Source: Mucilaginibacter segetis
GTDB taxonomy: Bacteria > Bacteroidota > Bacteroidia > Sphingobacteriales > Sphingobacteriaceae
DNA: 64,000 nt
Assembly (NCBI RefSeq): GCF_016522075.1
Contig: NZ_JAEHFW010000003.1
Location: 186,001-250,000, forward strand
Direction: 5' to 3'
In this document: one piece after another, positions 16,461-33,726 of the stretch
Layout of the letters: the number at the start of each line of letters is the position of its first letter
Position numbering within the stretch: the first letter of the stretch is position 1
The notes under the pieces: generated by a model
The model's input: only the letters and a program-made list of their open reading frames with translations
Told to the model about the DNA's origin: nothing
Database searches by the model: none
Program-made: the position numbers and the translations under genes

Positions 16461-19424
16461 CTACACTACAAGGTTTACTATTCTACCTTTTACCACTATT
16501 ACTTTTTTAGGTGTTTTGCCATCAAGGTATTTTTGCACGTCGGCATTAGTTAATATCATTTCCTCAATCTCTTTTGTATCTAAGCTCAAAGAAAGATTAA
16601 CGTTAGTTTTCATTTTACCGTTAATAGAAACAGGATAGCTGAATTCATCTTCCACCAAATAATCCGGATTAAATTTAGGATACGGCGCATAGGACAGCGT
16701 ACCCGCAGTATTACCCAGCAATACCCAAAGCTCCTCGCAGATGTGTGGCGCGTATGGGGAAAGAATGATCACCATATCCTGCAAAACAGCGCGTTTGTCG
16801 CATTTAAGATCCGTAAGTTCATTAACGGCTATCATAAAGCTGGAAACCGAGGTGTTGAACGAGAAACGCTCGATATCTTCTTCCACCTTGCGGATGATCT
16901 TATGCAGCGATTTTAATTCCGCTTTTGTTGGTTCGGCATCGCTAACGTTAAAATTCCAGTCGGCATCATGGAATAATCGCCAGAATTTGCGCAGGAATTT
17001 AAACACGCCCTCGATACCGTTAGTGTTCCAGGGTTTACTTTGCTCCAACGGACCTAAGAACATCTCGTACATACGCAAGGTGTCGGCACCGTAACGTTCT
17101 ATCAGATCATCCGGATTAACCACGTTGAATTTAGATTTCGACATCTTTTCGACCTCTGAACTACAAGTAAACTTATTATCTTCCATAATAAATTCAGTAT
17201 TATAGTCTTTACTTTTGGGAAAGTTTTCAAGAAACTTGGCGATATCTAAAATATCATTATTTACAATATTTACATCTACATGCCAAGCTGTTACAGTTGC
17301 ATTCACAAGGGATATCTGTAGACCTCTTCCATCAAGATCTTCTTTATATTTAAGATTTAGATCATCTTCTAATTTTTTAACTCTTATTTTGTCATTCAAA
17401 AACTGTTTTTCAAGGTCATATGAAAGATAAACAATAACGATATCATCACCGCCTAACTTTGTATTAATACCGTCCGGATTACTTGTTTTTTGTACTACTT
17501 GATAATTAATCTTATGTATAAAATTACTACGCCCCTGTATCATCCCCTGGTTGATCAGTTTTTTAAAAGGCTCTTCCTCCACAACCAGGTTCATATCTTT
17601 TAAAAACTTATTCCAGAAACGGCTGTACAGCAGGTGGCCTGTAGCGTGTTCACTACCGCCAATGTAAAGGTCTACCGCTTTCCAATATTCAATAGCCTCT
17701 TTACCGGCAAATTCCCGGTTGTTTTGAGCATCCATGTAGCGGTACCAATACCAGCTGCTGCCTGCCCAACCGGGCATGGTGCTTAATTCGTATTCCCCTT
17801 CGGGATGCTTCCAGTCCGTTGCTCTCCCTAATGGCGGCTCGCCGCTTTCGGTGGGTAGGTATTTATCAATTTCGGGCAATACCAATGGCAGTTCCTTTTC
17901 ATCTATAAGGTAAGGTAAGCCATCTTTAAAATACACGGGTACCGGTTCGCCCCAGTAACGCTGGCGGCCAAATATGGCATCGCGCATCCTGAAGTTCACT
18001 TTAGCCTTACCGGCGCCCAGTTCTTCCAGTTTGGTAATTACCGCGGCTGTGGCCTCTTTGTAAGCCATGCCGTTTATGAAACCGGAGTTAATGTATTTAC
18101 CGTCTTTGGTTGGGTCGGCCTCGGTCTCGATGTTTTGAATATCAATGATAGGCACTATCGGTAAATTAAAATGTTTGGCAAAAAGATAATCGCGCTGATC
18201 GCCTGATGGCACCGCCATAACCGCGCCTGTACCATATCCTGCCAAAACGTAGTCGGCTATCCAAACGGGTATCTGTTCGCCGTTAAGCGGATTGGTTACA
18301 TAACTGCCCGTAAAAGCACCGGATACGGTTTTGGTATCTGCCATACGGTCAAGCTCGCTTTTCTTTTTGGTTTGGGTGATGTAAGCCTCAATCTCTGCCT
18401 GTTGTTCTGGCGTGGTTAATGCCTGTACCAATTCATGTTCGGGTGCAATCACTAAAAAGGTAACACCAAAAATGGTATCAACCCGGGTGGTAAAAACCTC
18501 AATGTAGTTAGCCCCACCTAAGTCCTCTCCAAAGGAGAGAGTTGGGGTAATGCTAAATTTTACACTTGCTCCCACGCTTTTGCCTATCCAGTTGCGCTGC
18601 ATTTCTTTAAGCGGTTCGGGCCAGTCAATGGTATCCAGCCCTTGCAATAAGCGTTCCGCATAGGCGGTAATGCGCATGCTCCATTGCATCATTTTTTTCT
18701 GCTCCACAGGGTAACCGCCGCGTTCGCTAAAGCCATCCTTTACCTCATCGTTCGCTAATACGGTGCCTAAGGCCGGGCACCAGTTAACGGTACTTTCGCG
18801 CAGATAGGTAAGGCGGTATTTTAGTAATTCTGCTTGTTGCTGGTATTCGGTAAAGGCGCTCCATTCATCGGCACTAAAGGTTAATATCTCCTCATCGCAC
18901 ACTGCATTGATACCTGCTGAGCCATTTTTTTCGAAATGCGCTATCAAATTATCAATACTTTCGGCCTTGTCAGCATCTTTATTATACCAGCTGTTAAACA
19001 ACTGCATAAATATCCACTGTGTCCACTTATAGTACCCTGGCGAACTGGTACGTACCTCGCGGCTCCAATCAAAAGAGAAACCTATCTGATCCAACTGGCG
19101 GCGATAGGTGGCAATATTAGCCTCGGTAGTTACAGAAGGGTGCTGGCCGGTTTGTATGGCGTATTGCTCCGCAGGCAGGCCAAAACTATCGTACCCCATT
19201 GGGTGCAGTACGTTAAAACCTTTTAAACGTTTGTATCTCGAAAAAATATCGGAAGCGATATAACCCAGCGGGTGCCCTACATGCAAACCCGCGCCGGATG
19301 GGTACGGAAACATATCCAGCACATAATATTTGGGTTTGTTGCTGTTGTTTTCGGCTTTAAAGGTGTTATTATCCGCCCAAAACTGCTGCCACTTTTTCTC
19401 TATATCCTTAAATTGATAGTCCAT
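16461..19424 (-). CDS. leuS: Leucyl-tRNA synthetase with two unusual in-frame segments
   Basis: Charges tRNA-Leu. 987 residues, longer than the usual ~920-940 in this phylum. [16 protein letters not shown] (HIGH class) is at residue ~40, the CP1 editing domain is in the middle ([12 protein letters not shown]), and [11 protein letters not shown] (KMSKS) is at about residue 770. Extra length comes from two places: residues ~293-305 ([13 protein letters not shown]), encoded by a palindromic repeat, and an AT-rich stretch at about residues 640-713 between NFIHKIN and WHVDVNIV. Both keep the frame, so the enzyme is probably functional. Confidence 0.95.
18511..18548. repeat. Palindromic repeat inserted in frame within leuS
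   Basis: CCTCTCC-AAA-GGAGAG arms sit inside outer CCCCAC and TTGGGG arms. The layout matches the intergenic repeat at 966-989. On the coding strand it reads as the peptide [12 protein letters not shown], in a place where I recall the family having a variable loop. Confidence 0.55.
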
Positions 19425-19536
19425 GTGTATATTTTCGCCTGTGAGGTTGCGAAATTAATAAAAATGGATTAGTGATAGCGTGATAATGTTGATTTAATAG
19501 GTAGTATTTGTATGCCAGTACTATTATTGATTATTG

Positions 19537-19567
19537 TTGTATGCTTGTTTTTTAACCTGTAGTTTTG
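19537..19567 (+). promoter_or_regulatory. Promoter of the DUF1634 gene (TTG-N20-TAGTTTTG)
   Basis: An exact -7 box at 19560-19567 with TTG at 19537-19539, twenty bases upstream. The leader would be about 20 bases. Confidence 0.5.
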
Positions 19568-19592
19568 ACGATGCGCATTAAATTGTTCAGTT

Positions 19593-19973
19593 ATGAGTGA
19601 ATTTAAGGAAAAGGATATGCAAACCATTATTGGATGGATATTACGTGCAGGCGTCCTGATATCTATTGCAATAGTGTTTTTTGGCGGCGTAGTGTATCTT
19701 TACCGCCACGGCAGCGCAACGGCCAATTATAGGGATTTTAATGGCGTTCCCGATTTTGTACACAGTATACCCGGTATAATAAACGGTATTTTCATGTTCA
19801 GGGGGAGGGCTATTATTCAGGCCGGCATTATACTGCTCATTGCTACCCCGGTTATAAGGGTTATATTTTCGGCAATTGGCTTTATACTGGAAAAAGATCA
19901 CCTTTATACAGTTATTACCATAGTAGTGCTGCTCATTATCTTTAGCAGCATGTTAAGCGGCCACGCCGGTTAA
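19593..19973 (+). CDS. DUF1634-family small membrane protein
   Basis: 126 residues with three hydrophobic helices: WILRAGVLISIAIVFFGGVV, AIIQAGIILLIATPVIRVIF and YTVITIVVLLIIFSSMLSG. The arrangement and the RAG/LIATPV motifs match DUF1634, whose genes often sit beside TSUP/DUF81 permeases. No such partner is present here, so this is a solitary copy. A promoter is upstream, and the KTSC gene starts 39 bases after the stop. Confidence 0.8.
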   Translation: MSEFKEKDMQTIIGWILRAGVLISIAIVFFGGVVYLYRHGSATANYRDFNGVPDFVHSIPGIINGIFMFRGRAIIQAGIILLIATPVIRVIFSAIGFILEKDHLYTVITIVVLLIIFSSMLSGHAG

Positions 19974-20012
19974 TTTTTTGAAACTTTTTTTGTGCATATA
20001 TCGTTATATATA

Positions 20013-20228
20013 ATGCATCGTAAAACAGTGGAATCAACTGCCTTAAAGAGCATCGGTTATGATGCTGAAAAGCATGTGCTGGAGTTGGAATTCAGGGAAA
20101 GCGGAGATGTATGGCAATACTTAAATGTAAAGCCCGCCGTTTATAAAAAGATGATGGAAAGTGAATCATTAGGCAGCTTTTTTGTCAATAAAGTAAAAGG
20201 TGTATTTGATGAAAATAAAATAAAGTAA
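20013..20228 (+). CDS. KTSC-domain protein
   Basis: 71 residues from the ATG at 20013 (an upstream GTG at 19992 would add seven residues and is less likely). MHRKTVESTALKSIGYD and SLGSFFVNKVKG match the KTSC domain, named for a related motif, which is found alone or attached to phage and lysyl-tRNA-synthetase-like proteins. Its function is unknown. It probably belongs to the DUF1634 transcript. Confidence 0.75.
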   Translation: MHRKTVESTALKSIGYDAEKHVLELEFRESGDVWQYLNVKPAVYKKMMESESLGSFFVNKVKGVFDENKIK

Positions 20229-20285
20229 AGGTTAATAATTTATTATTAATTTACTCAATTATAAGTAGTTTAACAAAAAAATGTA

Positions 20286-20315
20286 TTTCTTTTTACTTAA
20301 AAAGGTGTATCTTTG
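20286..20315 (+). promoter_or_regulatory. Promoter of the double-glycine peptide gene (TTTC-N18-TATCTTTG)
   Basis: The exact -7 box TATCTTTG at 20308-20315 has a -33-like TTTC at 20286-20289. It gives a leader of about 30 bases before the ATG at 20352. Confidence 0.6.
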
Positions 20316-20351
20316 TAAACGAAAAATCTACAACTATTAATATAAACTAAA

Positions 20352-20564
20352 ATGAAAAAATTCGAAAAAAATCAATTGACCCGTAATGAAATGAAATCTG
20401 TTTTGGGAGGGTTAGTGGAAAACAGCCGTCATTGTTCTTCAAACATTACTTGCAAAGCTGATGAATATTGCGCTGATATTTCTGAAGAAACCATGTTCGG
20501 TACCTGCAAAAAGAAAGAAAAAGATCCTTTAACTTTAACAGCAAAAACAACTAAAATAGGTTAA
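20352..20564 (+). CDS. Double-glycine leader, Cys-rich peptide (RiPP/bacteriocin-like precursor)
   Basis: 70 residues. The charged N-terminal leader (KKFEKNQLTRNEMKSVLGG, Gly-Gly at 19-20) matches the double-glycine leaders of Bacteroidota natural-product precursors. The predicted core of about 50 residues has four cysteines (28, 34, 40, 52) and many Thr/Lys residues. I see no modifying enzyme, protease-ABC transporter or immunity gene nearby, so it appears to be an orphan precursor that uses exporters encoded elsewhere. The gene has its own promoter and terminator. Antimicrobial or signalling activity is inference. Confidence 0.65.
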   Translation: MKKFEKNQLTRNEMKSVLGGLVENSRHCSSNITCKADEYCADISEETMFGTCKKKEKDPLTLTAKTTKIG

Positions 20565-20590
20565 TATATTAATTTTTATATTACGCTCCA

Positions 20591-20651
20591 TTCCCTATAA
20601 GAGAATCTTTTCGTTGTAATGAAAAAAGGTTTTTTTATAGGGAATTTTTTT
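20591..20651 (+). terminator. Terminator of the double-glycine peptide gene
   Basis: Ten-base arms TTCCCTATAA (20591-20600) and TTATAGGGAA (20635-20644) enclose a partly paired inner region (AATCTTTTC with GAAAAAAGGTT) and are followed by T7. It lies between the stop codon and the convergent receptor gene. Confidence 0.6.
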
Positions 20652-20668
20652 GAATTTGCTAAGAGAAA

Positions 20669-23107
20669 TTAATTACTGCTTGCATTCATTCTGCTTTGTT
20701 CTACCTCATTTCCTGTTGAGTGCCTGCTTGCACCTTTTACAGATGTTTTTCCGAACCGGTAGCTGAAATTTAAGGTTATAATTCTGGTTTCCTTTTTATC
20801 CTTAATATGCTGATCCAGATTCAGATAAGTGGTATATGCCCTGTCCCGTCGGGTGTTAAATACATCATTTAGTATCAAACTTAGTTTACCTGCTTTTTTA
20901 AATAACTGTGTACTGACACCTGTATTGATACCATATGCAGGTTTAAAGTGGTTAATGCCGTAAAAGGTAGCAGTTTCATAATCTCCGGAGATATTTGCTG
21001 ATAGCTTTGGTAATAACTTAAATGTTTGTGATGTTGATAAAATAAGGTCACCTGTTCCTTTATTTAAATTTCCGTTTTGAGGGTAGGCTTTATAATGCTG
21101 ATATGAAAGATCGGCATCAAAATAACCGTTCCACCAGGCGAAGAAATCAAACGAACCGTTAAAATTTACACCATAATTGCCCACTTTGCCTAAATTACGG
21201 CTGGTTGCCACATTTACTTTTGTGCTATCATTTTGTTCATAAAAGGGGAACATCGCATTATTATAAAGTGTAACATACAGGTCGGTGGTGAATATCTGAT
21301 CATAGGTATGCGACAAATGAATATTGTTACTGTATGAGGGTTTAAGATAAGGATTGCCCGAATTATATCTGTACAGATCTATATAATATAAAAATGGATT
21401 AAGACTTTCATAAGCCGGCCTTTCAATACCACGGCTAAATGTTAGCGAAAATTCGTTCTTATCATTTTTTCTGTAAGTAGTAATAAAACTGGGAAAAAGA
21501 TTAGTGTAATTATCAGCAGTAATTGAATTTAATGATAATGAGTTCCCGGTAGATTGGGTGTGTTCTGCACGTAGGCCGGCCTCTATATCAAATTTTCCTA
21601 ATGTTAAGCTGTAATTGATATAAGCTGCGCTTATTTTTTGTTTATAAATAAAGCGGTTGGTAAAATTAGGATCAGATATATATTTCCCATTAACAAGCGG
21701 GCCGAATATTTGGTCGTTATCACTTTCTGTTGCGCTGTATTTTAAACCCGCTTCAATTTTTGAATTACCTGGTAGTGGGTTCGAATATTGCAGCAGGGCA
21801 GTCCAGTTGTGCCTGTCAGACGGTGAAAGGTTTTGTAATAATAACGGATTGCGGTAGGTATGGCCCGCGGCGTTTAAAAAGGTATTATTAATATACTCAG
21901 CAGATATACGTTTATTTGGGGAATAAGTTAAGTTAAAAGCTAAAGTTTTACCACTCGTATCTAATTTCCCGGAATAATTAATGTTGTAATTAACGTAATT
22001 GAAATCGCGGTTAATGGTTGAAGTCGCCAGTACCGATGAATCCAATATGCCGTTATTGGTAATGGTTAATTTATTGTCCTTAGAAAAATCATTATCGTTA
22101 ACCAAACCGTTAATAATAAAGCCAATAGTATTATTTTTATCCAGCGTAAAATCGGCTCCTAAACCAAAGTTATGACTAATGCTTTTTTGTATACTTGTGT
22201 ACATTGAATTATACTCGGCATTACTGCCAGCATAGGTAATTATGCGGTCGTTATCCAGATCGTGGTAATTTTTCCTATTATCAATATTATAGTTACCAAA
22301 AATATTTATGTTTTTAGTGCGGTTATTAAAGGTAATGCCACTGCCCAGTTTATAATAACGACCATAACCCGTGGTGGTATTAAATGTGCCATTGGTGCCA
22401 ATATTTTTTCCTTTTTTTAATACGATGTTTATAATACCACCGGCTGCTGCATCGTATTTTGCTGTTGCGCTTTTAATTACCTCAATGCGCTCAATATTAT
22501 TGCCGGGCATGCTTTTTAGCAACGATGCCAGATCGGGTCCGCTAAGGTTGGTGGTTTTGCCATCTACTAAAATAAGGGCATTTTGGCGTGCGCTGATGCT
22601 TATATTATCGTTATTATCAACCCGCACACCTGGCGATTGGCTTAAAATATCCAAAGCTGATTTACCATCAGCAATAATACTCGCCCCCGGGTTAATAATA
22701 AGTTTACCCGGGCGAACCTCAATAAAAGGTTTGCGGGCAACAATAGCCACTTCTTTAAGCTGGGTTTTATCGGCAGTTAGTAATATAGCCGGTATAGTAA
22801 CAGTTTGATTATTGCCAATACTAAAAACAGTGGAATAGGTTTTTTGATATCCCAACCGTGTTGCAAGCAATAAATAACTGCCGGCTTTAACTTCCGGAAA
22901 TTCATATGATCCCTGTTCGTTGACCAGGGCGGAGAGCACAATGGAAGAGTCGGGCGCATTCAGTAAAATAACAGTGGCGGCATCTGCCGGCTGGTTATTT
23001 TGCATTAACACATTCCCTCTTATAACTGAAGATTGATTTTGGGCGTAACTAAAATTAAATATACCTGAAACCAATACTATAAATAAGCACCCGATACTAA
23101 CCTTCAT
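20669..23107 (-). CDS. TonB-dependent receptor, outer-membrane beta-barrel family
   Basis: 812 residues from the first ATG, at 23105-23107. In-frame TTG codons upstream up to 23197 could extend it by 30 residues, but MKVSIGCLFIVLVSGIFNFS gives a normal signal peptide. The order is carboxypeptidase-regulatory-like domain (VIRGNVLMQNNQPADAATVI), plug (ALDILSQSPGVRVDNNDNIS, ALILVDGKTTNL, IKSATAKYDAAAGGIINI) and barrel (FSRGIERPAYESLNPFLYY). It is related to the receptor at 13785 but clearly diverged. It is divergent from the alpha/beta hydrolase, with an AT-rich spacer. Confidence 0.87.
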   Translation of the reverse strand: MKVSIGCLFIVLVSGIFNFSYAQNQSSVIRGNVLMQNNQPADAATVILLNAPDSSIVLSALVNEQGSYEFPEVKAGSYLLLATRLGYQKTYSTVFSIGNNQTVTIPAILLTADKTQLKEVAIVARKPFIEVRPGKLIINPGASIIADGKSALDILSQSPGVRVDNNDNISISARQNALILVDGKTTNLSGPDLASLLKSMPGNNIERIEVIKSATAKYDAAAGGIINIVLKKGKNIGTNGTFNTTTGYGRYYKLGSGITFNNRTKNINIFGNYNIDNRKNYHDLDNDRIITYAGSNAEYNSMYTSIQKSISHNFGLGADFTLDKNNTIGFIINGLVNDNDFSKDNKLTITNNGILDSSVLATSTINRDFNYVNYNINYSGKLDTSGKTLAFNLTYSPNKRISAEYINNTFLNAAGHTYRNPLLLQNLSPSDRHNWTALLQYSNPLPGNSKIEAGLKYSATESDNDQIFGPLVNGKYISDPNFTNRFIYKQKISAAYINYSLTLGKFDIEAGLRAEHTQSTGNSLSLNSITADNYTNLFPSFITTYRKNDKNEFSLTFSRGIERPAYESLNPFLYYIDLYRYNSGNPYLKPSYSNNIHLSHTYDQIFTTDLYVTLYNNAMFPFYEQNDSTKVNVATSRNLGKVGNYGVNFNGSFDFFAWWNGYFDADLSYQHYKAYPQNGNLNKGTGDLILSTSQTFKLLPKLSANISGDYETATFYGINHFKPAYGINTGVSTQLFKKAGKLSLILNDVFNTRRDRAYTTYLNLDQHIKDKKETRIITLNFSYRFGKTSVKGASRHSTGNEVEQSRMNASSN

Positions 23108-23314
23108 TAATAAAACAAGTAGATTTTTTTTCGATAAATTTCTTTTTAAGGAAGTGTTAAATATAACAAGATTATTACATACAGGAATATTTAACAAGTA
23201 TTTTTTACGAAATTTAGTGATAAATGTTACCGCAACTTTATGATTTATTAAAGTAATATACTTTGTTATTTTATTAATTTAGCCAATTGTATATTTATAT
23301 TATTCTGTATAAAC

Positions 23315-29166: not shown

Positions 29167-29697
29167 TTATTCCGGTTCGGTGGTAAACTCCTGCTGCGGA
29201 TGTACATCGTTTTTGGAACGTAAAAAGGTATCCAGAATGATGAGGCCCATACCAACCATAATAGAAACATCGGCCACATTGAATATTCCCGTTTGTAACG
29301 AACCGAACTGTATGTGCATAAAATCGGTTACGGAACCGTGTACTACCCTGTCGTAAATATTGCCTATACCACCGCCTATCACACAAATAATACCTGCCAG
29401 CCTTGTTTTAGAGAAGTTGTTTTTAACAAGGATGTATACCACAGCACCCAGCAGGGCCAATACCGGTATAAGCGTGAGCAAAATAAAGCGATAAGGGTTT
29501 ACCAGTTTATCGCCCAGGCTAAGGAACGCTCCGGGGTTCTCTACCTTCATGAGGTTAAAATGATGATCCAGGAAGCTGTAATGATCATAAACATCAAGCC
29601 GGGCGCGTACAATTTTTTTGGAAACCTGATCGCAGCCCACATTAACTGCCAGTATAAACAGGATAATTACAGCCCGGTAAATGCCTTTTACTTTCAT
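29167..29697 (-). CDS. lspA: Lipoprotein signal peptidase (signal peptidase II)
   Basis: Cleaves prolipoprotein signal peptides in the inner membrane. 176 residues from the ATG at 29695-29697. A longer reading frame to 29778 exists, but its first 27 codons run through a palindromic repeat and do not match the family. Four membrane helices and both catalytic Asp blocks are present: GNIYDRVVHGSVTDFMHI and FNVADVSIMVG. The C-terminal tail is hydrophilic. Confidence 0.95.
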   Translation of the reverse strand: MKVKGIYRAVIILFILAVNVGCDQVSKKIVRARLDVYDHYSFLDHHFNLMKVENPGAFLSLGDKLVNPYRFILLTLIPVLALLGAVVYILVKNNFSKTRLAGIICVIGGGIGNIYDRVVHGSVTDFMHIQFGSLQTGIFNVADVSIMVGMGLIILDTFLRSKNDVHPQQEFTTEPE

Positions 29698-29733
29698 CGA
29701 TGCTAAGGTAGTAAAATTGAGATATTCTTTATG

Positions 29734-29768
29734 AATCACCCTCTCTCCGCAGGCGGAAAGAGGTGATT
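29734..29768. repeat. Imperfect 16-bp hairpin repeat upstream of lspA
   Basis: AATCACC...GGTGATT outer arms with TCTCTCCGC/GCGGAAAGA inner arms (one mismatch, one bulged C) and an AG loop. It sits between two minus-strand genes. No U-run follows, so it is a repeat or processing hairpin rather than a terminator. Confidence 0.5.
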
Positions 29769-29778
29769 GAATACACAA

Positions 29779-32598: not shown

Positions 32599-33726
32599 TT
32601 ATTCCCACTTAAATGTTTTAACCGCAACGGCGTAAACACCTATACCCCATACCAATAATATAAATAGCTGATGGCTCACATCACCCAACCCCGCGCCTTC
32701 AAAGGCTACTTTACGCATAGCATCGTTAAGGTGGGTAAGCGGTAATACATTACTGATGTGCTGCAGCCATTTAGGAAAAGCCGTTACCGAAAAGAAAGTG
32801 CCCGATAGCAGAAACTGCGGTAAGGTAATAATATTGGATAATGGTGGTACGGTACTCTCGTTTTTAGCTATGCCCGATACCGTAAACCCGAAACCCATAA
32901 ATATGATAAGCCCGATAGCCGATAATACCAGCATGTTAAGCACCGTGACGACTCCATGAATCAGCGTAAAGCCGAAAGCGTAATGACCTATCAGTATAAT
33001 GAACAAGGCACCCAGTAACGAGAAAACGATACGTGCCAAAGCCTCGCCCAGTACAATGCTGTAGCGTTTTACCGGGGTAGCAAAAAAACGTTTAATAACC
33101 AAAGTTAGCCGCAGGCTGATAAATACGAACGCCGTACCGAAAACCCCGCTGCTTAACAGCGAAAAGCCTAATTGCCCCGGCAGTATAAAGTCGATGTATT
33201 TGTACGCCCGGCCGCTTATAGTGGTTTCTTTCAGATCGACCGCAGGGGGTATTTTAATGCCGGAATAAGACTGTATCTTTTTTAACTGCTCGGATTGCAT
33301 ATTATAGAACACATTATTGAGCACCGATTTAAGAATACCGCTCTTATCGGCAGATGCTTCACTATATTGCACGTCCACGCTAAGCGGCGTCATCGGCACA
33401 AAGGGTTTTACATCTATAATAGCATCAATACTGCCCTTTGCCAGGTTTTTGTTCATGGCCTCGGCAGACTGGTCTGTCACTAAATTTACAATGCCTGTTT
33501 TTTTAAGTGCTCTATAAACAGGGTTAATGGTATCACAACCCTTAGCCACACCTACATCTACCTTTACGCCGCCCCCGCCAATATTAGCAAACACAATAAT
33601 AAATATCATGGGGAAGGCTAAACTGAATACCACCGCCGAGGGACTGCGGATGATAGAACGAAAACTTGCTTTGGCAATGGCCAGTGTTGCACCAATATTA
33701 CTGTAAGGTTTATTATCTTTTGTCAT
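32599..33726 (-). CDS. ABC-2-type transporter permease
   Basis: 375 residues: one N-terminal helix (AVVFSLAFPMIFIIVFANIG), an extracytoplasmic region of about 130 residues, and five C-terminal helices. That is the layout of the ABC-2 permeases of the drug, antibiotic or lipid exporter type. It lies downstream of the ATPase gene on the same strand, 111 bases apart. Substrate unknown. Confidence 0.88.
   Translation of the reverse strand: MTKDNKPYSNIGATLAIAKASFRSIIRSPSAVVFSLAFPMIFIIVFANIGGGGVKVDVGVAKGCDTINPVYRALKKTGIVNLVTDQSAEAMNKNLAKGSIDAIIDVKPFVPMTPLSVDVQYSEASADKSGILKSVLNNVFYNMQSEQLKKIQSYSGIKIPPAVDLKETTISGRAYKYIDFILPGQLGFSLLSSGVFGTAFVFISLRLTLVIKRFFATPVKRYSIVLGEALARIVFSLLGALFIILIGHYAFGFTLIHGVVTVLNMLVLSAIGLIIFMGFGFTVSGIAKNESTVPPLSNIITLPQFLLSGTFFSVTAFPKWLQHISNVLPLTHLNDAMRKVAFEGAGLGDVSHQLFILLVWGIGVYAVAVKTFKWE

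Follow-up and report, generated by a model that had tools for sequence, protein, structure and literature searches.

Bacteroidetocins (class IIf) combine a double-glycine leader of 15–16 residues with a C39-ABC exporter and a thiol oxidoreductase, and the genes for a TM protein, the C39-ABC exporter and usually the thiol oxidoreductase lie in proximity, as described in the portion of the published account available to us (PMC6671954). According to the same portion, bacteroidetocins A and B contain four cysteines and bacteroidetocin C an uneven number, no immunity gene was found, and deletion of the thiol oxidoreductase weakens activity. In pneumococci, double-glycine peptides encoded at other loci share the C39-ABC exporters ComAB/BlpAB, BriC leaving through ComAB and BIP through either ComAB or BlpAB, as stated in the accessible part of a second account (PMC7595303). 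Here we analyse an orphan gene in a 64,000-nt stretch of DNA (the window, whose first letter is position 1), which is part of contig 3 of a 4.09-Mb genome of the genus Mucilaginibacter. The gene encodes a double-glycine, four-cysteine precursor, and we consider it probable that its product is a trans-processed, fully disulfide-bonded secreted peptide, likely bacteriocin-like.

Architecture of the precursor gene

The features of the locus are collected in Table 1. In the ORF translation, the two glycines are residues 19–20 and the cysteines are residues 28, 34, 40 and 52. The core carries a net charge of 0 (K, R, D and E counted) and is hydrophilic, 13 of its 50 residues being hydrophobic. The window precursor scores 16.9 bits with NF047798 leader_Chryseo (cut-off 23.5), 17.9 bits with TIGR04149 (cut-off 25) and 13.8 bits with PF14406 (cut-off 25), in each case below the cut-off. 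Its AlphaFold model has a mean pLDDT of 61.5, with core blocks at 76–78, and a Foldseek search of the PDB with this model returned no significant match (best E 2.6); defensins and knottins among the listed matches are likewise non-significant and were given no weight.

Table 1 Features of the precursor locus and its flanks, in window coordinates
Feature	Position	Strand	Basis or remark
KTSC-domain gene	19992..20228	+	Left edge of insertion site; outside the system
TATCTTTG, presumed -7 box (exact)	20308..20315	+	Consensus match; box also before G062 homologue
Precursor gene, 70 aa	20352..20564	+	ORF, syntenic homologue
Double-glycine leader, 20 aa	20352..20411	+	Leader-model scores, homologue over cut-off
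Core, 50 aa, C-x5-C-x5-C-x11-C	20412..20561	+	Spacing same in G062 and one G030 precursor
Terminator hairpin and T run	20590..20652	+	Folding energy versus shuffles
TonB-type receptor gene (OMP_b-brl_3, Plug)	20669..23197	-	Right edge of insertion site; outside the system

The consensus of the Bacteroidetes -7 box is TAnnTTTG, and we take TATCTTTG at 20308–20315 to be such a box. It lies 36 nt before the precursor ATG and recurs 38 nt before the ATG of a homologue in a second genome, G062; taken alone the motif is unremarkable in frequency, with 5 occurrences in the window versus 2.9 expected and 17 of 100 shuffles reaching 5, and the window copy has, by eye, a weak -33 element. Downstream of the gene, the hairpin at 20590–20645, followed by T7, folds with -25.3 kcal/mol (z -5.5), which none of 200 shuffles equals. 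A simple terminator scan of 19900–20900 returned no site, and Rfam gave no match within 19400–21000.

Upstream of the precursor lie genes for LeuRS, DUF1634 and KTSC proteins, and downstream the convergent TonB-type receptor gene is followed by hydrolase, DinB and DUF885 genes. The LeuRS (987 aa, 16461–19424) has, by eye, apparent extra sequence before its KMSKS motif. The Pfam scan covered 17 window proteins, namely the ORFs of at least 150 aa at 9.3–33.7 kb minus one antisense ORF and, of the shorter ORFs, the DUF1634 and KTSC proteins alone. Among these 17 we found no C39 peptidase, PCAT, radical SAM, Lan or grasp enzyme, and no thiol oxidoreductase, sensor or regulator; an ABC-2 permease (32602–33726) and a signal peptidase II (29170–29778) in the window are both of other kinds. 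No immunity gene was found near the precursor. The preliminary description of this DNA, which reported a double-glycine, four-cysteine peptide with an exact -7 box and a hairpin terminator, is borne out in each of these respects, and its statement that no modification, export or immunity gene is close by holds among the 17 scanned neighbours.

Homologue and insertion site

G062, from another Mucilaginibacter species, holds a syntenic homologue of 48% identity which retains the double glycine and four cysteines at identical spacing, and which scores 27.8 bits with NF047798, over the cut-off of 23.5. Homologues without leader and cysteines were among what the preliminary description had named as evidence against itself, and the G062 protein has both. 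Some match to the precursor is present in 7 of 149 genus genomes (E<=0.01) and in 10 of 399 genomes of a family sample (E<=0.001), with full-length sequences in both searches confined to G062 and the window genome itself; no relative was found in the genome-contig scan or among plasmids, phages, PDB sequences or PADLOC. Between the two genes, codon positions 1, 2 and 3 are 67, 66 and 46% identical, the third diverging most, with a dN of 0.44 and a dS of 1.85, the latter near saturation. The G062 hairpin is unrelated to that of the window but strong (z -8.4). In the 5' region past the -7 box, 87 of 109 aligned bases are identical versus 75% in shuffles, so that conservation beyond the box is not established there.

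In both carriers the peptide unit is a self-contained insert between the KTSC and TonB-type receptor genes. KTSC matches occur in 75 of the 149 genomes, and the 30 best loci all have a TonB-type gene downstream, 28 of them with no peptide. In 25 of these 28 loci the two genes lie -8 to 19 nt apart, and the other three have gaps of 45, 112 and 1140 nt; the gap measures 440 nt in the window and 379 nt in G062. The 1140-nt gap, in G048 (L103, to 2975), holds a different insert with a 191-aa ORF (2296–2871) for which Pfam gave no match at 1e-5, suggesting that the junction may tolerate inserts. In a tree of the flanking proteins the carriers are not sisters and two changes are needed, a one-change history appearing in 0 of 200 bootstrap trees, with the place of the window genome within its group unfixed. 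This pattern fits one old insertion followed by losses, or transfer through shared flanks. A search of the unit edges for direct repeats or other marks of mobile elements gave nothing convincing.

Candidate machinery elsewhere in the genomes

The window genome contains only two C39 matches, and these lie on contig 1, not on the window's contig. The first, a C39-ABC exporter followed by HlyD, carries DCG and NHF motifs, which we take to be catalytic. The second is a fusion protein of 531 aa that joins C39-like, VKOR and thioredoxin domains and has two CxxC motifs; in an alignment to the exporter its C39-like domain has a gap at the catalytic cysteine and no histidine at the other site, and the domain is apparently dead. 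Between exporter and fusion lie three double-glycine precursors together with thioredoxin-fold proteins, of which four were scanned and two carry DUF4369. Eight precursors were found in this genome, five of them, including that of the window, outside the exporter cluster. Two of these five (the L006 and L026 paralogues) adjoin TlpA-like genes, unlike the window precursor. The search for similar leaders and peptidase-containing ABC transporters that the preliminary description had proposed fits both of its suggestions: a distant exporter, and a family of scattered precursors to which the window peptide belongs.

In G062 the corresponding machinery lies in one region, with an exporter 86% (ABC part), an HlyD 70% and a VKOR fusion 59% identical to those of the window genome, and no leader-type precursor was seen in the 32 kb around it. 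By eye, the G062 interval between exporter and oxidase (L097 12548–17957, L102 1–640) holds large, carboxypeptidase-regulatory-like proteins in place of precursors and TlpA-like genes. NF047798 at E<=5 finds in G062 only the homologue and one 962-aa frame; the model missed one of the eight precursors of the window genome (L003 16128), so that the lack of further precursors in G062 holds only as far as this model can detect them.

Across the genus, NF047798 leader matches (E<=0.05) occur in 52 and C39 matches in 107 of the 149 genomes. C39 is present in 51 of the 52 leader-bearing genomes versus 56 of the 97 others (Fisher p 2e-8, kinship and completeness ignored), the exception being G079, which is 81% complete. 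Of 29 leader loci from other genomes, 14 have all or part of the VKOR fusion within about 1.5 kb, four of these 14 having only a piece of 30–82 aa. The remaining 15 comprise two with a distant ABC match only, one with TlpA only and 12 with none of these queries. In addition, in three genomes orphan six-cysteine double-glycine precursors stand between MFS-like and LOG-type genes by eye (L009, L010 and L012, around 1501), an interval that in the window genome holds a thioredoxin-fold protein instead (L022 5627–7576). G068, 61% complete and with the most leader matches (17) in the genus search, carries three near-identical six-cysteine precursors in tandem (L173, G068:C88:11500-12900).

Even number of cysteines in the cores

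We assembled 158 cores, 147 from listed leader matches and 11 others, three of which (that of the window, L003 9405 and L010) are also among the listed matches. Genus-wide, among the leader matches listed, 157 of the 158 cores have an even number of cysteines (2 in 2 cores, 4 in 16, 6 in 116, 8 in 22 and 10 in 1), and no leader contains any. The one odd core, G039:C6:252940, has three; another member, G146:C1:4982320, has no double glycine and is probably not a precursor. The rule was written down after 36 cores, all even, and the remaining listed matches were fetched afterwards; of the 115 cores fetched after it was set, 114 are even. The cores are hypervariable and fall into 65 groups by similarity, one of which has an odd member, giving P values over groups of 2e-18 when odd and even counts are taken as equally likely, 6e-9 when the expected share of even counts is 0.71 and 4e-5 when it is 0.82.

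A first set of control ORFs, less clean in that unlisted precursors were still inside, is even in 171 of 241 cases with at least two cysteines, 51 of 71 with at least four and 18 of 22 with at least six. For a cleaner control, 186 known cores and 32 leader-like ORFs were removed, and the 642 kept are even in 179 of 264, 44 of 65 and 8 of 12 cases at the same thresholds. Counts in the cleaner control fall smoothly (36 ORFs with four cysteines, 17 with five, 8 with six and 3 with seven), and 5 and 7 cysteines thus occur among control ORFs, whereas none of the 158 cores has 5, 7 or 9. For other residues, the share of cores with an even count is 46 to 73%. The natural reading of an even count is full pairing into disulfides by the VKOR-thioredoxin enzyme.

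The spacing of the window core is found exactly in the G062 core and in an unrelated G030 core, and its relaxed form, C-x5-C-x5-C-x(4-12)-C, occurs in 8 of the 158 cores versus a shuffle mean of 0.9, none of 500 shuffles reaching 8. A genome-contig scan with the oxidase returned three loci only, so the even-cysteine rule is tested inside the genus. Two of these are from Mucilaginibacter, one with two precursors (8 and 6 cysteines) and one in which the pattern search found no precursor and later reading gives one with 8 cysteines; the third, from a Bacteroidetes MAG, has an oxidase of 34% identity and no precursor by pattern search.

Discussion

From these observations we infer the following route. 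The precursor made from the standalone transcription unit would be recognised in trans through its leader, and a single C39-ABC and HlyD pair elsewhere in the genome would cut after Gly20 and export the 50-aa core from the cytoplasm. The membrane C39like-VKOR-Trx enzyme, which lacks the C39 catalytic residues, would dock on the leader and oxidise the four cysteines to two disulfides. Once released, the peptide would most likely target bacterial competitors in the manner of an unmodified (class II type) bacteriocin. Target and activity form the least certain step, and the neutral, hydrophilic core, unlike membrane-active bacteriocins, speaks against it; the route as a whole has to accommodate a leader below the NCBIfam cut-offs in the window copy, the failure to find an immunity gene nearby (which bacteroidetocins share), the lack of a TlpA-like neighbour, one odd core among the 158, and the restriction of the full-length peptide to the window genome and one further genome among the 149.

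The same processing could instead deliver a peptide whose role lies in signalling or within the community and not in killing. A neutral, soluble core with its own promoter box would suit such a role, and pneumococcal double-glycine peptides include signals, according to the accessible part of PMC7595303; we nevertheless hold it unlikely, since hypervariable cores and a rare, patchy occurrence fit competition better and no sensor or regulator stands among the scanned neighbours. The resemblance of the leader to TIGR04149, at a score below the cut-off, would suit a modified RiPP precursor, of the radical-SAM, the lanthipeptide or another type. However, SPASM (PF13186) has no match in either carrier genome (G000 and G062), with 8 of 14 control genomes positive, and the same is true of the LanC-type cyclase (PF05147, LANC_like), with 1 of 14 positive. 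These nulls favour an unmodified disulfide peptide, as does the cysteine parity, which fits pairwise disulfides, and we regard a modified product as quite improbable.

Weak leader scoring in the window copy, one of only two carriers found, might point to a decaying relic whose export has been lost. Against this stand an open frame, a promoter box, a strong terminator, the retention of all cysteines and the codon-position pattern of a constrained protein, which make decay very improbable. We also considered the peptide as a ligand or cargo of the adjacent TonB-type receptor, whose gene is adjacent and convergent in both carriers; all 28 other fetched loci, which lack the peptide, nevertheless have a TonB-type gene (34–56% identical) in that position, and this partnership, scarcely credible where peptide-free sites keep the receptor gene, was rejected.

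Beyond the trans-processed disulfide peptide of the window, the data may reflect a genus-wide regime, a proposal for and against which we see the balance as even. In it, a common cysteine-free leader would precede scattered, hypervariable cores with almost always an even number of cysteines, all served by one exporter and one leader-docking oxidase; precursor genes would be gained and lost at fixed gene junctions, and the C39-like domain would read the leader and bring the oxidase to any core that carries it. If so, in these Bacteroidetes the leader would suffice to mark a peptide for export and disulfide formation, which would explain the orphan look of such precursors. The cores would then form a natural library of 4- to 10-cysteine scaffolds and offer a simple route to disulfide-rich peptides, and the role of C39-like-VKOR-thioredoxin fusions would be directly testable.

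Among the literature matches listed, mostly open-access and available in part, we found no description of the even-cysteine rule or of C39-like-VKOR fusions serving scattered precursors. The leader type is that of NF047798 leader_Chryseo ('bacteriocin-like protein'), whose cut-off the homologue passes and the window copy does not; the model comprises 18 leader residues only and does not cover core, export or disulfides. The leader also resembles the Bacteroidetes RiPP leaders TIGR04149 and PF14406, in carrier genomes without a SPASM match. Sharing of an exporter is alike in the pneumococcal double-glycine peptides, which are Gram-positive and for which the available part of PMC7595303 names no disulfide enzyme. 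By comparison with the bacteroidetocins, as far as the portion of PMC6671954 available to us describes them, the system shares the double-glycine leader, four cysteines (A and B), a C39-ABC exporter, a thiol oxidoreductase and the lack of a found immunity gene. It differs in its 20-residue rather than 15–16-residue leader, in an orphan gene with no C39-ABC exporter or oxidoreductase among the 17 scanned neighbours, in the fusion of VKOR and thioredoxin to a C39-like domain, and in the even cysteine count of 157 of 158 cores among the matches listed. A double-glycine leader and a C39-ABC exporter in one genome correspond to the PCAT type; judged from its sequence, the precursor is thus a putative variant of PCAT-exported disulfide peptides, distinct from bacteroidetocins by leader length and gene proximity.
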